Below are positions 13,876 through 24,212 of a stretch of 32,881 bases of DNA, piece by piece. Numbering within the stretch: position 1 is the first letter of the stretch; each line of letters opens with the position of its first letter. Source of the DNA: a virus; the IMG/VR virus record IMGVR_UViG_3300009098_000019, positions 1-32,881 of that record; one strand, 5' to 3'. The notes under the pieces were generated by a model that saw nothing but the letters and a program-made list of their open reading frames with translations, did no database searches and had not been told where the DNA came from. The position numbers and the translations under genes were made by a program.

Positions 13876-14733
13876 TCAGCCCTCCCCGGCTGGCAGATGG
13901 TGAATGAGCGCGGGACGCGCCCACTGTCGTTGAAAGCGCCGCCACTCGGGCGCCGGCCGGCGCCGCTCTTGTGACGGCACGTCGTCGGGGCGCCACAACA
14001 TCGCCATCGGTGTGAACCCGATCCGTAGCATGTCGGTGAGGCGCCGCTCGGCGGCCGCGAAGGTGTCCTGCGGATAGCCGATCAGCACGTAGCAGCGCAG
14101 GCGGTGCGAGCAGGCCGTGAAGCCGGCCGCGAGCAGACGCCGGGCGGCCGACTCGAGGGTCTCGAAGGCGTCGCCGGGGTCGTAGGCCCAGAACATCGCC
14201 GGCCGCGGCGACAAGCCGGCCAAGAGCTCGACCTGGTAGTCCTGTAGCGCGAGCGCTTCGAGCCCGCCGGTAAACTCCACACGCCGGCGCTGCCGCTGGA
14301 GCATCGCGAAGACGGCGCGGACGTGCGCCTCGGGACACGCGAGCAGGTTGTCGTCGAGGATGTTCCACCCGTCGAGGATCGGCAGCAGGCGCGGCACCGG
14401 GTCGCGCTTCCAGACGGAACAGAACCAGCAGCGGCGCGGGCAGCCGCGCGACGTGAACACGTAGCCCGGCTTGATGTATTTGCCGGGCACGAACTCGTCG
14501 CCACGGTCACCGTAGGCCACGCCGCCGACGGTTGTGGGCGCGACATGGCGCCACTCTTCGGCGAGTTGCTCGGCGCGTCGTTTGTCATCGGTGAAGGTGA
14601 CCGAGACGTGCACCTGGTCGGCCTCGTCGAGGAGGTCAGGCGGGCCGAAACGGGCGAGCGCATCGGTCGGGGTGGCCTTCGTGCGCCGCGGGAACACGCG
14701 GATCAGGCGCGGCGTCGCCATCGGGAGGATCAT
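13876..14733 (-). CDS. Radical SAM enzyme, phage-encoded
   Basis: The start at ATG 14733 is set by the ATGA overlap (285 residues). The motif SRGCPRRCWFCSV holds the three cysteines C98, C102 and C105 of the CxxxCxxC site that binds the [4Fe-4S] cluster for S-adenosylmethionine cleavage. Downstream are features of a partial TIM barrel: NILDDNLLACPEAHVRAVF (compare DDNF in related enzymes), a VEFTGGLEA strand, and CYVLIGYPQDT. There is no complete N-terminal cobalamin domain, and the C-terminus is short, so no class is assigned. The substrate is unknown; nucleotide or tRNA modification, or a defence-related role, are possibilities. It lies in the replication operon. Confidence 0.82.
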   Translation of the reverse strand: MILPMATPRLIRVFPRRTKATPTDALARFGPPDLLDEADQVHVSVTFTDDKRRAEQLAEEWRHVAPTTVGGVAYGDRGDEFVPGKYIKPGYVFTSRGCPRRCWFCSVWKRDPVPRLLPILDGWNILDDNLLACPEAHVRAVFAMLQRQRRRVEFTGGLEALALQDYQVELLAGLSPRPAMFWAYDPGDAFETLESAARRLLAAGFTACSHRLRCYVLIGYPQDTFAAAERRLTDMLRIGFTPMAMLWRPDDVPSQERRRPAPEWRRFQRQWARPALIHHLPAGEG

Positions 14734-14987
14734 CGTTGCGTCGTCGCATGCCGCTCGGCGGCGTGCATCGCGTCCTCGATCGCGCGGACCGGCGGCCCGA
14801 GCGGGTTCCAGGCCGCGTCGAGTAGCTGCCAGCCCTCGCCCTGGTGCACGACGTGGTAGGTCTCGCACGCCGTGCGCCGGCCGAACTCGGTGTGCTGCCA
14901 GGTCAACGTGCCGGTCTGCATCGGCGGGGCGTGGCGCCGCAGGCGCGGCCCCCCGTGTAGAAGCTCGGCGGCGGGCTTGCGCGGCAT
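14730..14987 (-). CDS. Small protein between initiator and radical SAM, unknown
   Basis: An 85-residue protein starting MPRKPAAELLHGGPRLRR at ATG 14987, which shares a base with the initiator's TGA. It contains GTLTWQHTEFGRRTACETYHVVHQGEGWQLLDAAWNPLG, which looks like a small beta-rich domain. It overlaps the radical SAM start by four bases, so the two may be made together. No family recognised. Confidence 0.6.
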   Translation of the reverse strand: MPRKPAAELLHGGPRLRRHAPPMQTGTLTWQHTEFGRRTACETYHVVHQGEGWQLLDAAWNPLGPPVRAIEDAMHAAERHATTQR

Positions 14988-15766
14988 CAGGCCTGCCTCC
15001 GCACCGGCTCGGTGCGCACCGCGAACGCGAACTCGACGCGCGCGCCGGGGCGGCCGGCGGCCGCGAGCGCGGCGTGCAGAAGCGCGGCATCCCGCCGGGT
15101 GATCCACGCCGCGGCCTGCTCGTGGTCGGTGCGCCCGTTCTTCATCCGCACGACGAGCGTGTCGCCGCGGTCCTCGACGAGCACGCTGTCGGCCCACCAC
15201 TGATGAAACAGCCAGCGCGAGAGTTGCGATTCGACTTGGCGTTTGACCGCGGCCCAAACGTCGGGCGCCGCGTCCATCGGGCCGAAGGCCAGTTGTTCGG
15301 GCGCGCCGCGCGCGCGCGCGCCGGTAGTACGTTGGGGATCAGAAGTACAGGGGTTCTGTCCGCCACTGGTGGCGGCTATTCCGGGGTCTTGACCGCCACC
15401 GGTGGCGGCTATCGCTGACGAATGACCGCCACCAGTGGCGGCTATTCCTGACGAGACAAGACGCGCGTTAACCCAGTTGGTCGCGAGCCGGTCGAGGGTG
15501 ATGTTCCAAACTGTGGCGTGCCGGCGGCGCCGCGTCACGGCAACGATCCATCCGTCGGCCTCGAGCCGATGGAGGCCGCGCTCGACGGTGCGCAGCGGGA
15601 GTTGCGCCCGACTCACCAGGGCGGGGAGGGACATGCGGGCACCACGCCCGGTCTTGAAGTCCGCGAAGGTCGAGAGCGCGCCGAGCACGAGTTTATCCGT
15701 CGCACACCGGAAGCCGGTGGTGAATGTGATCCGCTCGGGCACCGAGAGGTAACGGAGGTCGGTCAC
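14987..15766 (-). CDS. Replication initiator (lambda O-like, DnaA N-like C-terminus)
   Basis: The start is taken at GTG 15766, whose GTGA overlaps an upstream mini-gene (259 residues); ATG 15811 is an alternative with no clear ribosome site. Residues about 25-90 form a winged helix (KLVLGALSTFADFKTGRGARMSLPALVSRA, then RTVERGLHRLEADGWIV), as in phage replication O proteins. Residues about 106-138 are three 11-residue repeats (xGIAATGGG) encoded by iterons. Residues about 169-245 (VWAAVKRQVESQLSRWLFHQWWADSVLVEDRGDTLVV) resemble DnaA domain I, the helicase-contact domain. It would bind its own iterons and recruit host DnaB. Confidence 0.75.
   Translation of the reverse strand: MTDLRYLSVPERITFTTGFRCATDKLVLGALSTFADFKTGRGARMSLPALVSRAQLPLRTVERGLHRLEADGWIVAVTRRRRHATVWNITLDRLATNWVNARLVSSGIAATGGGHSSAIAATGGGQDPGIAATSGGQNPCTSDPQRTTGARARGAPEQLAFGPMDAAPDVWAAVKRQVESQLSRWLFHQWWADSVLVEDRGDTLVVRMKNGRTDHEQAAAWITRRDAALLHAALAAAGRPGARVEFAFAVRTEPVRRQA
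15360..15441. repeat. Three palindromic iterons, probable replication origin
   Basis: Near-identical 16-bp palindromes of form CCGCCACYRGTGGCGG occur at 15360-15375, 15393-15408 and 15426-15441, exactly 33 bp apart (about three helical turns, also 11 codons). They lie within the initiator gene, as the lambda origin lies within gene O. On the initiator's downstream side, 15323-15359 is about half A+T, low-GC for this genome, and next to it 15307-15321 is a pure alternating CG tract. Together these fit iteron binding sites beside a melting region. This is origin-like architecture, inferred. Confidence 0.72.
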
Positions 15767-19269: not shown

Positions 19270-19488
19270 CTATGCAATCGCTCGTCGTTGGGCCCGCGCG
19301 TAGTCGATCGCGGACGTGTGCCCGTGCACCCAGGCGTCGAGCTCGCGCGTGTCGAACAGGTAGAGCCGGCCGCGGCGACAGCACGGCAGCCGGTGTTCGC
19401 GCACCAGGCGATAGAGCGCGGACTGCGAGCCGAGCCGCAAGTACGCGATCGCTTCGTGCGCGGTGAGATAGGGTGACTCACCTTTCAC
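19270..19488 (-). CDS. Excisionase-like helix-turn-helix protein
   Basis: It starts at GTG 19488 in a GTGA overlap with the repressor gene (72 residues). It is a single HTH_17-type module: YLTAHEAIAYLRLGSQSALYRLVREHRLPCCRRGRLYLFDTRELDAWVHG, with the helix-turn-helix, wing and terminal helix. As second gene of the early leftward operon of a phage with a tyrosine integrase, excisionase (Xis) is a good candidate. A regulator role is equally consistent with the sequence. Confidence 0.72.
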   Translation of the reverse strand: MKGESPYLTAHEAIAYLRLGSQSALYRLVREHRLPCCRRGRLYLFDTRELDAWVHGHTSAIDYARAQRRAIA

Positions 19489-19703
19489 GCCGGGATCTCC
19501 ACGTGGCTGAAGAGGTCCTCGATCGACACGCCGAAGACGCTGGCGATCGCCCGGGCCTTCTTCAGCGAGGGCTCGCGGGTGCCGCTTTCGATCTGGCTGA
19601 TCGTGGTGGTGTCGAGGCCGACGCGGTCGCCGAGGTCTTTCTGTGTCATCTCCCGCGCCCGGCGCAGTTGGCGGAGCCGGAGCACCTTGCGCTTTTTACG
19701 CAT
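19485..19703 (-). CDS. Cro-like XRE repressor, first gene of early operon
   Basis: The 72-residue protein is one HTH_3 domain: LRLRQLRRAREMTQKDLGDRVGLDTTTISQIESGTREPSLKKARAIASVFGVSIEDLF, preceded by a basic start (MRKKRKV). Small size and first position in the leftward replication operon suggest a Cro-type lytic repressor, opposed to the larger rightward XRE gene at 19776. No ribosome site is visible before ATG 19703, and the candidate promoter is only nine bases away, so the mRNA may be leaderless. Confidence 0.8.
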   Translation of the reverse strand: MRKKRKVLRLRQLRRAREMTQKDLGDRVGLDTTTISQIESGTREPSLKKARAIASVFGVSIEDLFSHVEIPA

Positions 19704-19775: not shown

Positions 19776-20300
19776 ATGCTCGCCCTCCAGCCGTTTACGT
19801 CTGCCGTGGCGTCCAGCACACTGCTGGACGTGGACATCGACTGGCACATCGGGGATGTGATCACGAAGCTGCGCAAGCGCGCCCGAATGAATCAGACCAC
19901 GCTCGCCGCGAAGGTCGGCGTGAACAAAGCGACCATTGTGCGGGCCGAAGACGGCGACGGCAAAGTCTCGCGCGCGACGTATCTGAAGATCGCGCAGATG
20001 TTGAAGACCGACCTGGCCGCGCTCGAGCACGAAGCGGCGCGCTTGCAGGCGGAGCCGGTCGTGCACGAACCCGCGTCCACGCAGGCAGCCCACGATGCCC
20101 ACACCACTCCTGCCCTTCCCGGCGCGTCAAGTACGGGAGACCGCCATCCGGTTGCTCGCCGCGTCGCGCGGGACCTCCTTATCGAAGCCGCGGCCGTGGA
20201 TCAATCGGCCCGAACCCTCCGAAGCGATCGGCAACCTACTGCAGCGCCTCGTCGTCCTGCAGCCGGCAGCCGTGCTCCTGATCGAAAACGTCGTCGCTGA
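19776..20300 (+). CDS. XRE-family repressor, CI-like
   Basis: The frame gives 174 residues. Residues about 24-85 are an HTH_3 domain: IGDVITKLRKRARMNQTTLAAKVGVNKATIVRAEDGDGKVSRATYLKIAQMLKTDL. No LexA/CI-type peptidase domain follows. From about residue 107 on (TTPALPG...RAPDRKRRR) the frame is Arg/Pro/Ala-rich and lies under another convincing open frame (20095-20325), so the real protein may end earlier or be shifted in frame. Its position upstream of int and divergent from a Cro-like gene supports a lysogeny repressor. Confidence 0.72.
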   Translation: MLALQPFTSAVASSTLLDVDIDWHIGDVITKLRKRARMNQTTLAAKVGVNKATIVRAEDGDGKVSRATYLKIAQMLKTDLAALEHEAARLQAEPVVHEPASTQAAHDAHTTPALPGASSTGDRHPVARRVARDLLIEAAAVDQSARTLRSDRQPTAAPRRPAAGSRAPDRKRRR

Positions 20301-20325: not shown

Positions 20326-21420
20326 GTGGGGGTCTACACCCGGCCGGACTCGCCGTGGTACTGGCTCTATCTCGAGACCGCGGCGCCCGGCCAGCGCAAA
20401 GTCAAGACCGCCGTCCGCGTTGGCACGACGACGGCGCAACGCCACGACAGCCGGGCTCAGGCGCTCGAGGTCTATCACCAGCGGATGGCCGCGATCGCAG
20501 CGCGCGTGCATCGGCTGCGCCTCGAGACCCCGGCGATCCGCTTCAGTAAGTACGCCGAGATCTACCGGCGCGACGTCCTCCCCCATCACAAAGGCCACGA
20601 GCGCGAGGGCGAGCTCCTGACGGTGCTGGTCGCCGGCTTCGGCGACGAGCTCCTCCAGTCGACCGACCGTGACCGCGTGCGGCAATGGATGACCGTGCGC
20701 CGCGGCGACGTGTCGGCGCGGACCGTGAACCGCGAAGTCGATCTGCTGAAGGCGATGTTGCGCGACGCGGTGCCGAAGTATCTCGAGGCGTCCCCCCTGG
20801 TCGGAATGAAGCGCCTCGCTGTCGTGCCGCCGAAGCGCCGCCTGATGACGCCGGCGGAAGAGCGCAAGCTCCTGCGCGAGCTCCGGCCCGACGACAAAGC
20901 GATCGTCCTGATGGGGCTCGACACGCTGTGCCGACTCGGCGACATCCTCGACCTGCGTCGCGACGACGATGACGGGCGGTGGCTCTACATCCGTGACCCG
21001 AAAGATCCCTCGCAGGGTGCGCCGTACCGGGTGCCGGTGTCGAAGCGGCTGCGGAAAGCGCTCTGCCAGGTCGAGGAAAACGGCGAGTACTACTTCCCAC
21101 GCCGGCGGATCGCCCAGACCGAGCGCGACCGCCGCAACACCATCCGGCAGATGCTCGAATACGCGTGCGCCCGCGCCGGCGTCGACTACGGCCGGGCCAA
21201 GGGCGGCATCACCTTCCACTGGGCGACGCGGCGAACCGGCGCGACGCGGATGATCCGGCGCAAGGTGGACCTGAAGACGGTCCAGGCGATCGGCCACTGG
21301 AAAACGGCCGACGTGGTGCTCGACATCTACGCCGAGGCGCACCCGAAGGCGGCGCAGGCCGCCGTCGAGCTGGTCGGGGCATTCCCGTCCCGTTCCCGAC
21401 CGAAGCGAAAGCGCGCGTAA
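20326..21420 (+). CDS. int: Tyrosine integrase
   Basis: The 364-residue phage integrase starts at GTG 20326, immediately after a TAG. It has an N-terminal arm-binding-like region (VYTRPDSPWYWLYLE), a SAM-like core-binding domain (residues about 70-160) and a catalytic domain. Catalytic candidates are R203 (LCRLGDILDL), a lysine in the DPKDPSQGAPYRVPVS hairpin, R302 in FHWATRRTGATRM, W325 in GHWKTAD, and nucleophile Y335 (LDIYAE). In the HxxR box the usual His position holds Trp, with H298 one residue early. It would integrate the phage at the tRNA site that begins 31 bases after its stop. Confidence 0.92.
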   Translation: MGVYTRPDSPWYWLYLETAAPGQRKVKTAVRVGTTTAQRHDSRAQALEVYHQRMAAIAARVHRLRLETPAIRFSKYAEIYRRDVLPHHKGHEREGELLTVLVAGFGDELLQSTDRDRVRQWMTVRRGDVSARTVNREVDLLKAMLRDAVPKYLEASPLVGMKRLAVVPPKRRLMTPAEERKLLRELRPDDKAIVLMGLDTLCRLGDILDLRRDDDDGRWLYIRDPKDPSQGAPYRVPVSKRLRKALCQVEENGEYYFPRRRIAQTERDRRNTIRQMLEYACARAGVDYGRAKGGITFHWATRRTGATRMIRRKVDLKTVQAIGHWKTADVVLDIYAEAHPKAAQAAVELVGAFPSRSRPKRKRA

Positions 21421-21450
21421 TTATTAGGATTATTCGTAATCGTGGGCGGC

Positions 21451-21496
21451 GTTCGCAACGCGGAGGTCACGAGTTCGAGCCTCGTGTCGTCCACCA
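21451..21496 (+). other. attP: attP core: 3' part of a tRNA-Ala(CGC) gene
   Basis: Reading rightward the segment forms the anticodon loop TTCGCAA (21452-21458, anticodon CGC), the 3' anticodon stem CGCGG, variable loop AGGTC, T arm ACGAG-TTCGAGC-CTCGT, acceptor strand GTCGTCC, discriminator A and CCA (21494-21496). The U at position 70 and A73 fit the G3-U70/A73 identity of tRNA-Ala. The 5' half is absent: the preceding A+T-rich sequence cannot form acceptor or D arms. Tyrosine integrases commonly recombine within anticodon loops, and integration would rebuild the tRNA. An inverted repeat GATTA-TTCG-TAATC lies at 21428-21441. Confidence 0.85.
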
Positions 21497-21540
21497 CCGT
21501 TCCCCCTCTACAGCGGCGGGGGCCCACCGAGCGATCACGC

Positions 21541-21590
21541 CGTCACCCATCGCCGCGAATCGTCACCTTTCGCCACGCGTCATTCCCGCC
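21541..21590. promoter_or_regulatory. Candidate integrase arm-type sites
   Basis: CGTCACCCATCGCC (21541-21554) and CGTCACCTTTCGCC (21561-21574) are direct repeats 20 bp apart with two mismatches, followed by a degenerate third copy CGTCATTCCCGCC (21578-21590). They lie 45-95 bp from the attP core in an otherwise gene-free stretch, the place where arm-binding sites are expected. The stretch 21497-21672 otherwise shows only the ribosome site of the next gene. Confidence 0.45.
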
Positions 21591-21672
21591 TGGTTCCCGG
21601 TGTGGTCGACACCCGACAGGAGTAGACTCCCCGGCGACGCGCCCGCAGGACCGCGGGCCGACTGGAGGTTCT

Positions 21673-22416: not shown

Positions 22417-22529
22417 CGGTCCCCCTTCGCGCGCTGCACGGCGGCCTGCAGCGCCTTCAGTTGTGCGATCTGCGCCGCGATGTCCGCGGCCGCCTGTTCC
22501 AGGCGCGCGATCTGCGCGCTGAGGGTCAT
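22413..22529 (-). CDS. 38-residue coiled-coil peptide
   Basis: It reads MTLSAQIARLEQAAADIAAQ then IAQLKALQAAVQRAKGDR, with hydrophobic residues every three to four positions: one continuous helix likely to form a coiled coil. ATGA overlaps join it to the exonuclease gene and to the next gene. It may bind or modulate one of the recombination proteins. Confidence 0.55.
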   Translation of the reverse strand: MTLSAQIARLEQAAADIAAQIAQLKALQAAVQRAKGDR

Positions 22530-23209
22530 GCGATCACCTGCAAGAGGCGCACGGCCTCGACCTCGGCGTCGACCTCGGCGAGGAAGCGCGCCACACACTC
22601 GGCGTAGCACGCGATGGCCGCCTCGTCGCGCGCGACGCGCACCAGCTTGGTCTGTAGCGCCTCGGGAAACTCAGGGTGGAACGACAACCAGTCGCACCAG
22701 GCGGCGCCCGTCAGCCACAAGAGATGCACGATCTGCTTCTGGTAGTCCATCGGCACGACGCCGGTCTTCAGATACTCGAGGTGCGTCGCGGCGAGCGGGC
22801 ATTTCAGTTCGACGATGCCCTCGAGGTCGCCGACGTGGCCGTCGAGCGACGCGCCGGCGCGCAGGGTCGGGTGCTGCACGAACCCGGTCTGCGTCACGAG
22901 GTGCCCCGTCAGGAGCTCGTAGGCCTCGCGCGCCTGGGGCTCGCGCGTGATGCCGTCCCGCATCGCGGCCGAGACGTAGCCGCCCTCCTGCGGGCGGCCG
23001 GTGATGCGCTCGAGCGCGAGCTGCACGCGCAGGTTGCGACGCCCCGCCGTCTCGTCCTGCCCACTGCGCGGCGTCGAGAGCATGTCGACGGCGCGGGAGC
23101 TCGTCAACTGGCCGCAGCGCGCCTGCAGCCACGCCGGCGTGCGCTGTAGCGCGTCGACGATCGTCACCCGGCGCGCGGCCGGCGCCCCGACGAGGGTCAG
23201 GGGGCTCAC
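22526..23209 (-). CDS. YqaJ/lambda-Exo-type exonuclease
   Basis: The 227-residue nuclease starts at GTG 23209 in a GTGA overlap with the annealing protein. Motifs are WLQARCGQLTSSRAVDML near the N-terminus, GITREPQAREAYE (about residues 86-98) with the conserved Glu, SLDGHVGD (D123) and GIVELKCPLA (E134, K136), the PD-(D/E)XK site of the lambda Exo family. It would resect double-strand ends 5' to 3', exposing single strands for the ERF partner. The pair forms a two-component recombinase like Red. Confidence 0.88.
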   Translation of the reverse strand: MSPLTLVGAPAARRVTIVDALQRTPAWLQARCGQLTSSRAVDMLSTPRSGQDETAGRRNLRVQLALERITGRPQEGGYVSAAMRDGITREPQAREAYELLTGHLVTQTGFVQHPTLRAGASLDGHVGDLEGIVELKCPLAATHLEYLKTGVVPMDYQKQIVHLLWLTGAAWCDWLSFHPEFPEALQTKLVRVARDEAAIACYAECVARFLAEVDAEVEAVRLLQVIA

Positions 23210-23976
23210 TGCGCCCCCCGAGTCGTCGCGGCCAGCTTGAGGGTCTGGAGCACGTCGGGGCCGACCGCCTTCAGGTGCAGGCGCAGCTCCTTGGTGGAGG
23301 CGAGGTAGGCCTGCTCGAGCGCCGGCAGGTCGACGCGCGCTGCCGCGTCGAGGCTCGCACGCCAGCGCAGGAACCCTGACGGGTGCTGCACGGGACCGCG
23401 GGGCGTCGTCGGCGCCGGCGGCACGGCGGTGCGCGCGTCGTCGTCGGCGCCCTTGGTCGTGATGTTCAGCAGGTCGTTGGTCGTGTAGCGGCGCCCGTAG
23501 CTGATGGTCGAGCCGAGCGCCTGCACCGCGTTCTTGCTGCCGCTCGTGTCGGCCGGCGAGACAAACGCGCTCTCGCGCTCGTGCCCGTCACGGTGCGTCA
23601 GGATACCGACGACGCGGATCGTTTTCGGGTCGGGCCACTCGGTGCGGAAGGACAGCCCGAACCCGTGCCGCACGAGGATGGGACGCACGGCAGTCTGGAT
23701 CTGCTCGAGCGGCGCGTAGGTCCACTTGCCGCCGTCGCCCGGCGTCGCGGCGACCAGCGTCGGGATCTCGGCCGCCATCAGCGCGAAGGCCTGATTGAAG
23801 GCCGTGCGCGCCTGCAGCGCGAGGACGTGTTCGTGCATCGCGATCAGCCGTTCCAGCTTCGCGACGTCGACGCTGGGGTTGGCGGCCAGCCGCTCGAAGT
23901 TGAGCACGGGGGCGAGCGCGACGGACGTCTCAGACGTCTCCGACACGACGTCGAGGATGGCGGGCGCGGGGGCCAT
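23206..23976 (-). CDS. erf: ERF-family single-strand annealing protein
   Basis: The start at ATG 23976 (256 residues) overlaps the upstream TAA (TAATG); the longer in-frame extension is shadow. The ERF pattern spans AFNQAFALMAAEIPTLVA, KWTYAPLEQIQTAVRPILVRHGFGLSFR, IRVVGILTHRDGHERESAFVSPADTSGSKNAVQALGSTISYGRRYTTNDLL (about residues 58-180). ERF proteins anneal complementary single strands and aid circularisation of phage DNA. The N-terminus contains SETSET, encoded by GTCTGAGAC-type units. The C-terminal tail (RGPVQHPSG onward) is variable. It acts with the YqaJ exonuclease next door. Confidence 0.88.
   Translation of the reverse strand: MAPAPAILDVVSETSETSVALAPVLNFERLAANPSVDVAKLERLIAMHEHVLALQARTAFNQAFALMAAEIPTLVAATPGDGGKWTYAPLEQIQTAVRPILVRHGFGLSFRTEWPDPKTIRVVGILTHRDGHERESAFVSPADTSGSKNAVQALGSTISYGRRYTTNDLLNITTKGADDDARTAVPPAPTTPRGPVQHPSGFLRWRASLDAAARVDLPALEQAYLASTKELRLHLKAVGPDVLQTLKLAATTRGAQ
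23927..23944. repeat. Two tandem GTCTGAGAC-type units
   Basis: GTCTCAGAC and GTCTCCGAC (plus-strand reading) lie head to tail at the N-terminal coding end of the ERF gene, read on the minus strand as Ser-Glu-Thr repeats. Confidence 0.8.
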
Positions 23977-24212
23977 TAGGAGCACCTCCCGCAGTGGCCG
24001 CACGCCGTGCCGCAGGCGCCGCCGGCGAGCTCGTCGTCGTCGGCGTGCTCTTCGCGCGCCGCGAGGATGGCCGCGTCGGTGGCGCGGTTGTCGGCGAGCA
24101 GCGCGTCCAGGTGCGCGCCCGTCGCGGGGTTGGTGATGAAGGCGTGGAAGGACTGCCGCGCGAACCACTGCGCGGCGTTGATGCCGGGGCGACGGGCGGA
24201 ACGACGAGCCAT
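23976..24212 (-). CDS. Small Cys-rich-tailed protein, first recombination-operon gene
   Basis: The 78-residue protein begins MARRSARRPGINAAQWFARQ, has a FITNPATGAHLDALLADNRATDAAILAAREEHADDDE helical region and ends in a cysteine cluster (GGACGTACGHCGRCS, CxxxCxxCxxC), a possible metal or iron-sulphur site. Its start codon sits one base from an RNA hairpin arm. The function is unknown. Confidence 0.65.
   Translation of the reverse strand: MARRSARRPGINAAQWFARQSFHAFITNPATGAHLDALLADNRATDAAILAAREEHADDDELAGGACGTACGHCGRCS

Follow-up and report, generated by a model that had tools for sequence, protein, structure and literature searches.

A tRNA-Ala(CGC) 3' half next to a tyrosine integrase as the probable attP core of an uncultured phage predicted to infect Vicinamibacteria

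Class IA attachment sites, in which attP and attB of tyrosine integrases lie in the anticodon loop of a tRNA, were reportedly described by Williams in 2002, as relayed by papers citing that work. According to the accessible portions of three papers (PMC4383910; PMC8371274; PMC2647930), attP sites centred on the anticodon are established as a class and are common; one of the three gives an Islander count of 2083 islands with such a site (PMC4383910). Here we analysed the whole of a linear, 32,881-base IMG/VR virus record, hereafter the window, in which a tRNA-Ala(CGC) 3' half lies downstream of an integrase gene (int). In so far as these portions describe class IA sites, the locus would share with them the anticodon-loop crossover, the element-borne tRNA 3' half, the rebuilding of the tRNA and the displacement of a half to the far end. 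It differs in its predicted target, a tRNA-Ala(CGC) of Vicinamibacteria, and in its int, which reads toward the core on the same strand; since int and the tRNA half are read in the same direction, the rebuilt tRNA would stand at the int-distal end.

We put at roughly 93% the probability that this tRNA half forms the core of a complete attP used by a lambda-type tyrosine integrase. This reading is supported by the recurrence of the half near related integrases (45/51), by matching host genes (16/16), by paired arm-type repeats, by flanking phage genes and by integrated islands in hosts (7/7).

The tRNA half and its surroundings

The presence of a tRNA-Ala(CGC) half downstream of int was confirmed (Table 1). 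As the first-pass annotation had claimed, the fragment directly follows int, starting 31 nt past the stop codon (TAA, 21420), and its elements can be read from the anticodon loop through to CCA. TTCGCAA, the loop with anticodon CGC, is succeeded by the 3' anticodon strand CGCGG, the variable region AGGTC, a T arm (ACGAG-TTCGAGC-CTCGT) with 5/5 pairs formed, the acceptor 3' strand GTCGTCC, the discriminator A73 and CCA. U70, within the acceptor strand, and A73 had both been named beforehand and are both present, but the given length of 46 bases applies only with the preceding G, which is also common to the tRNA; the segment itself has 45 nt. The 5' half had been described as missing, and indeed the segment at 21452-21496 contains no D arm. 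ARAGORN, a scanner of the kind that had been proposed for challenging the fragment, calls no complete tRNA here or elsewhere in the 32,881-base window. A chance origin of the segment is excluded: an intact tRNA-Ala(CGC) gene of a host matches it at 44/45 nt, and it recurs after related integrases in 45 of 51 cases, both described below. The likeness of viral fragments to the host tRNA begins at about TTCGCAA in 7/7 viral matches, and the displaced fragments at seven host loci begin at the start of TTCGCAA or one base later; on these two sets of fragments the anticodon loop is predicted to be the 7-bp overlap region.

The segment might also be a functional phage RNA, namely a truncated tRNA-like minihelix in which GGGCGGC (21444-21450) pairs with GTCGTCC. 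These 7 nt directly upstream are those of the host tRNA-Ala 5' acceptor strand and the predicted fold does pair the two strands, but the fold is no better than those of shuffled sequences (z -0.68), for which we rejected this candidate, and the Rfam tRNA model gives 15.9 bits on the segment, under its gathering score of 29 bits. Moreover, the upstream 7 nt are not conserved in most relatives, being found again in L087, and this 5' side resembles a core-type half-site. A minihelix is therefore considered very improbable.

Table 1. Features of the window around the predicted attP and two further genes to its left
Feature	Position	Strand	Basis or remark
Possible radical SAM protein	13876-15090	-	Pfam E 5e-4, below curated cut-off
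Second site-specific recombinase, serine (resolvase) family, 243 aa	17514-18245	-	
HTH repressor-like regulator, upstream of int	19485-19703	-	Pfam and PHROG
HTH regulator, upstream of int	19776-20300	+	Pfam and PHROG
Tyrosine integrase (int), 364 aa	20326-21420	+	Pfam Phage_integrase 4.8e-12; PHROG 1 integrase 2.9e-37
Putative left (P) arm-type repeat pair CATTCCCGtcccGTTCCCG, within int 3' end	21375-21398	+	Direct repeat of 21576-21599
Putative left core-type half-site CGGCG, imperfect mirror of the 3' anticodon strand	21447-21451	+	Sequence; role by analogy with lambda layout
Predicted 7-bp overlap (crossover) region TTCGCAA	21452-21458	+	Viral fragments and displaced host fragments
Predicted attP core region, tRNA-Ala(CGC) 3' half TTCGCAACGCGGAGGTCACGAGTTCGAGCCTCGTGTCGTCCACCA, 45 nt	21452-21496	+	Read from sequence
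Pair of accessory 17-nt repeats (CGTCACC..TCGCC.CG), 20-nt spacing	21541-21577	+	Repeat search
Putative right (P') arm-type repeat pair CATTCCCGcctgGTTCCCG	21576-21599	+	Direct repeat of 21375-21398
Small ORF after attP, 120 aa	21673-22035	+	No PHROG match
YqaJ/RecE-like exonuclease, far side of core	22526-23209	-	Pfam 4.8e-22; PHROG 149
Erf-like single-strand annealing protein, far side of core	23206-24168	-	Pfam ERF 9.4e-15; PHROG 155

The integrase has no match among 50,697 phage records. Its residues R203, H298, R302, W325 and Y335, which we take to be catalytic, are invariant in 9/9 aligned integrases, all of which also have the N-terminal region (putatively arm-binding). To the left of the core lie repressor-like regulators, a serine recombinase, the small and large terminase, a P22-like portal, a scaffold and a major head protein. 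The RecE-like exonuclease and Erf genes lie to its right, together with several genes lacking a Pfam or PHROG family match. The earlier conclusion that phage genes on both sides make the site attP rather than attL or attR is thus borne out by the terminase, portal and head genes on one side and the two recombination genes on the other.

Related integrases and paired arm-type repeats

No exact 34-mer of the segment occurs in the viral contig collection. A relaxed pattern derived from the sequences of the window and its relative L003 matched seven viral contigs; no complete tRNA was seen in the stretch examined of any of them, and all seven have a homologous integrase just upstream of the tRNA half. 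With an integrase alignment of these seven contigs and L002 as the query, 51 viral loci were found, which include near-copies and the seven pattern-matched contigs. With a strict detector, 35 of the 51 showed a tRNA half no farther than 1.5 kb away on the strand of int (Ala(CGC) in 34, Val(CAC)-like in L116); its control, the opposite strand plus the region upstream of int, gave 10 matches in 448,722 bases, six of which are themselves tRNA-Ala(CGC) halves in opposite orientation. In a looser search the Ala(CGC) half was found in 45/51 relatives, on the int strand in 39 and on the other strand in six. Over 42 nt, 25 of these 45 halves are identical to a sampled intact host gene, but the window's own is not. 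The looser search found no Ala(CGC) half in L074 (=L002), L082, L116, L081, L096 and L100; one of these has the Val(CAC)-like half (1/51) and five have none (5/51), three of the five (L081, L096 and L100) being cut by contig ends 0 to 77 bases past int. In a tree of 49 integrases (48 relatives and the window, 46/49 different), neither the distance nor the orientation of the fragment was clearly clustered.

Two relatives appear to depart from this target. L002/L074, the nearest integrase relative (61-62% identity), keeps the window's ATTCCCG arms without a tRNA half, and at about 6110-6150 of L002 an inverted repeat, CTGTTTCCGCGCC-TTTTT-GGTGCGGGGAACAG, replaces it; this repeat between the arms has no match, at up to 3 mismatches, in 193 genomes of the predicted host class. 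In L116, a tRNA-Val(CAC)-like 3' half lies 348 nt past the int stop instead of tRNA-Ala(CGC). Judged by sequence, L002/L074 appears to have switched target, and L116 to have changed from one tRNA target to another.

In the window, two 24-nt direct repeats (with CATTCCCGtcccGTTCCCG and CATTCCCGcctgGTTCCCG), 79% alike and 201 nt apart, flank the core, and only 1/200 shuffles gave an equally good pair. We compared the arms in 22 loci with a near core, the window included and one duplicate dropped. The best left-right match within a phage averaged 14.2 vs 9.7 for cross pairs, a difference reached in 0/20,000 permutations (n=22, the kinship of the phages being ignored). In most loci the left repeat starts at about -70 to -72 from the core, irrespective of how far away the int stop lies (8 to 111 nt), and the right repeat stands at about +79 to +128 in most of the 22. 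The arm letters vary among the phages, with TTCCCG, TTCACG, ATCACG, GTGCACAC and TGCCCC types; six of the 22 loci (L079, L083, L104, L108, L121 and L122) have no convincing arm pair. Read after the lambda system, as the available parts of two papers present it (PMC4880445; PMC8138268), the paired repeats are predicted arm-type sites that would mark a whole attP, which is a new observation here. In addition, the accessory repeats at 21541-21577 may be an accessory-protein site, and CACCTTTCGCCAC, similar to the accessory 17-nt repeat, was found in L003, L028 and L109.

The recurrence also bears on another account, in which the segment would be a relic left by the decay of a tRNA gene of the phage and would play no part in integration. 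The absent 5' half and the frequency with which phages encode tRNAs would fit this; a relic hardly explains why the same half, beginning at the anticodon loop, lies near 45/51 integrase relatives with arm repeats at fixed offsets, and we regard it as extremely improbable.

In 7/51 relatives, int is followed by a free-standing copy of its N-terminal domain, putatively arm-binding, the ORF starting from the int stop at +262 (L108), +781 (L109), +263 (L110), +293 (L124), +800 (L094) and +367 (L090 and L092). In L094 and its near-copies L090 and L092, this copy is fused to a T5orf172/MUG113 domain, presumably GIY-YIG-like. In L108, L109 and L110, no more than about 35 nt separate the right arm-type repeat from the ATG of the copy, which suggests self-regulation or a role in directionality.

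We tentatively propose a joint reading that we think possible, though on balance doubtful. The host tRNA would impose a nearly fixed core common to many Vicinamibacteria phages, and identity would reside in private arms read by the N-terminal domain of each integrase; the left and right arms co-vary within a phage and differ from one phage to the next, and would form a lock-and-key arrangement against cross-excision by the integrases of co-resident prophages. The free N-terminal copies after attP in some members would then compete for the arms or steer direction.

Host tRNA genes and integrated elements

The exact 29-mer of the segment had no match in the species-genome collection, and the relaxed pattern matched 16 stretches, all 16 of which are complete tRNA-Ala(CGC) genes by ARAGORN. 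All 16 genomes belong to one class, that of G014, which includes Luteitalea; because NCBI places Luteitalea in Vicinamibacteria, we infer that the matched class is Vicinamibacteria. Fourteen of the 16 record titles name Acidobacteria, Acidobacterium, Acidobacteriota or Luteitalea, one Candidatus Sulfopaludibacter and one Bifidobacterium breve. The last is a MAG (L015, CALQBJ020000210.1) whose tRNA-Ala(CGC) is acidobacterial and whose genome is grouped with Acidobacteriota, and its title looks mislabelled.

The closest host gene (L016) matches the segment at 44/45 nt, with one difference at tRNA position 67. The acceptor GGGCGAC...GTCGTCC occurs in the class (L014), and position 3 is G in the 16 matching host genes, so that the G3:U70 pair is present in them. 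In the phylum sample, one of 396 genomes (G014) came within 2 mismatches of the segment, at 1 mismatch, and a looser pattern matched 86/193 class genomes. No host gene identical to the segment was found among the genomes searched (the collection with the 29-mer; 396 phylum genomes). The host is thus predicted to be a species of Vicinamibacteria (Acidobacteriota) with a tRNA-Ala(CGC) of matching 3' half, and its acceptor is probably GGGCGAC or has a G-U pair at 6:67. The prediction that the host attB is a tRNA-Ala(CGC) gene sharing this 3' sequence agrees with all 16 genomic matches being such genes, although the best has one mismatch, and the suggestion that such a search would point to the host holds at class level only.

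Seven class loci were picked for having two copies of the segment no more than 11 kb apart. At each of the seven, a single intact tRNA-Ala(CGC) is followed, 1.3 to 10.6 kb further downstream, by a second copy in the same orientation, which in every case starts at the anticodon loop, one differing at its first base. A distantly related integrase adjoins the displaced copy in 3/7 loci. As these loci read, integration at tRNA-Ala(CGC) happens in the hosts, and the elements seen differ from the window's phage. An int profile matched 56/193 class genomes at E 1e-10, mostly weakly, and the sole strong match was G529 (E 8.5e-87), in which no tRNA half follows int and no matching tRNA appears under the patterns used. 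In the phylum sample the int search gave 2/396 genomes at E 1e-35. Among the 30 loci listed, viewed over about 1.5 kb on each side, no prophage of the window's phage or its close int family stands at tRNA-Ala(CGC). A search for prophages flanked by the repeat had been proposed; islands so flanked were recovered as other elements (7/7 loci), but not as the window's phage or its close int family.

The segment could itself be an attR, that is, a host tRNA 3' half displaced by an integrated prophage, with host DNA on its right. A displaced half would adjoin int, as is seen in the window, and an integrase stands next to the displaced half in three of the host islands. The genes for the RecE-like exonuclease and Erf, located 1.0-2.7 kb rightward of the segment, the matched right arm repeat and the lack of an intact tRNA in the 32.9 kb record argue against host DNA there, making attR unlikely. 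The attP reading is further strengthened by the matched arm-type repeats on both sides, since an integrated end would retain just one arm.

Proposed integration and comparison with described systems

In the proposed route, phage DNA would circularise upon infection, the N-terminal domain of the integrase would hold the direct repeats as arm-type sites, and the catalytic domain would cut at the borders of TTCGCAA in both the phage and the host tRNA-Ala(CGC) gene. Strand exchange would join the phage 3' half to the host 5' half, rebuilding the tRNA gene at a prophage end that continues into 21497 onward, so that the host tRNA would stay intact, and the host's own 3' half would be displaced to the other prophage end, adjoining int.

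This assignment links uncultured phages with a class of hosts through a rule that works on sequence, from attP half to Vicinamibacteria. About 50 natural variants with a nearly constant core and changing arms form a data set for how integrases read arm sites, and the family might supply integrases for genetic work in Acidobacteriota. Judged from search entries alone, no literature on integration of Acidobacteria or Vicinamibacteria prophages at tRNA-Ala was found.

As far as the available text on lambda attP and its integrase goes (PMC4880445), the window shares with that system an integrase that combines a catalytic domain with an additional N-terminal region, a core between candidate arm-type repeats and a predicted overlap between inverted half-sites. 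The comparison covers core, arms and int. Unlike in lambda, each arm in the window consists of one tandem pair with a repeat period of about 11 bp, and in the window's family the arm letters change from phage to phage with the core nearly fixed. The tRNA-Lys island PFGI-1 of Pseudomonas fluorescens Pf-5, as portions of its description report, is likewise class IA and has 45 bp of tRNA 3' end in its att repeat, but it is a genomic island at another tRNA in another host (PMC2647930). Three aspects of the present locus are out of the ordinary: the class of its predicted host, the arms that vary around a nearly constant core, and a change of target that two relatives appear to have undergone.
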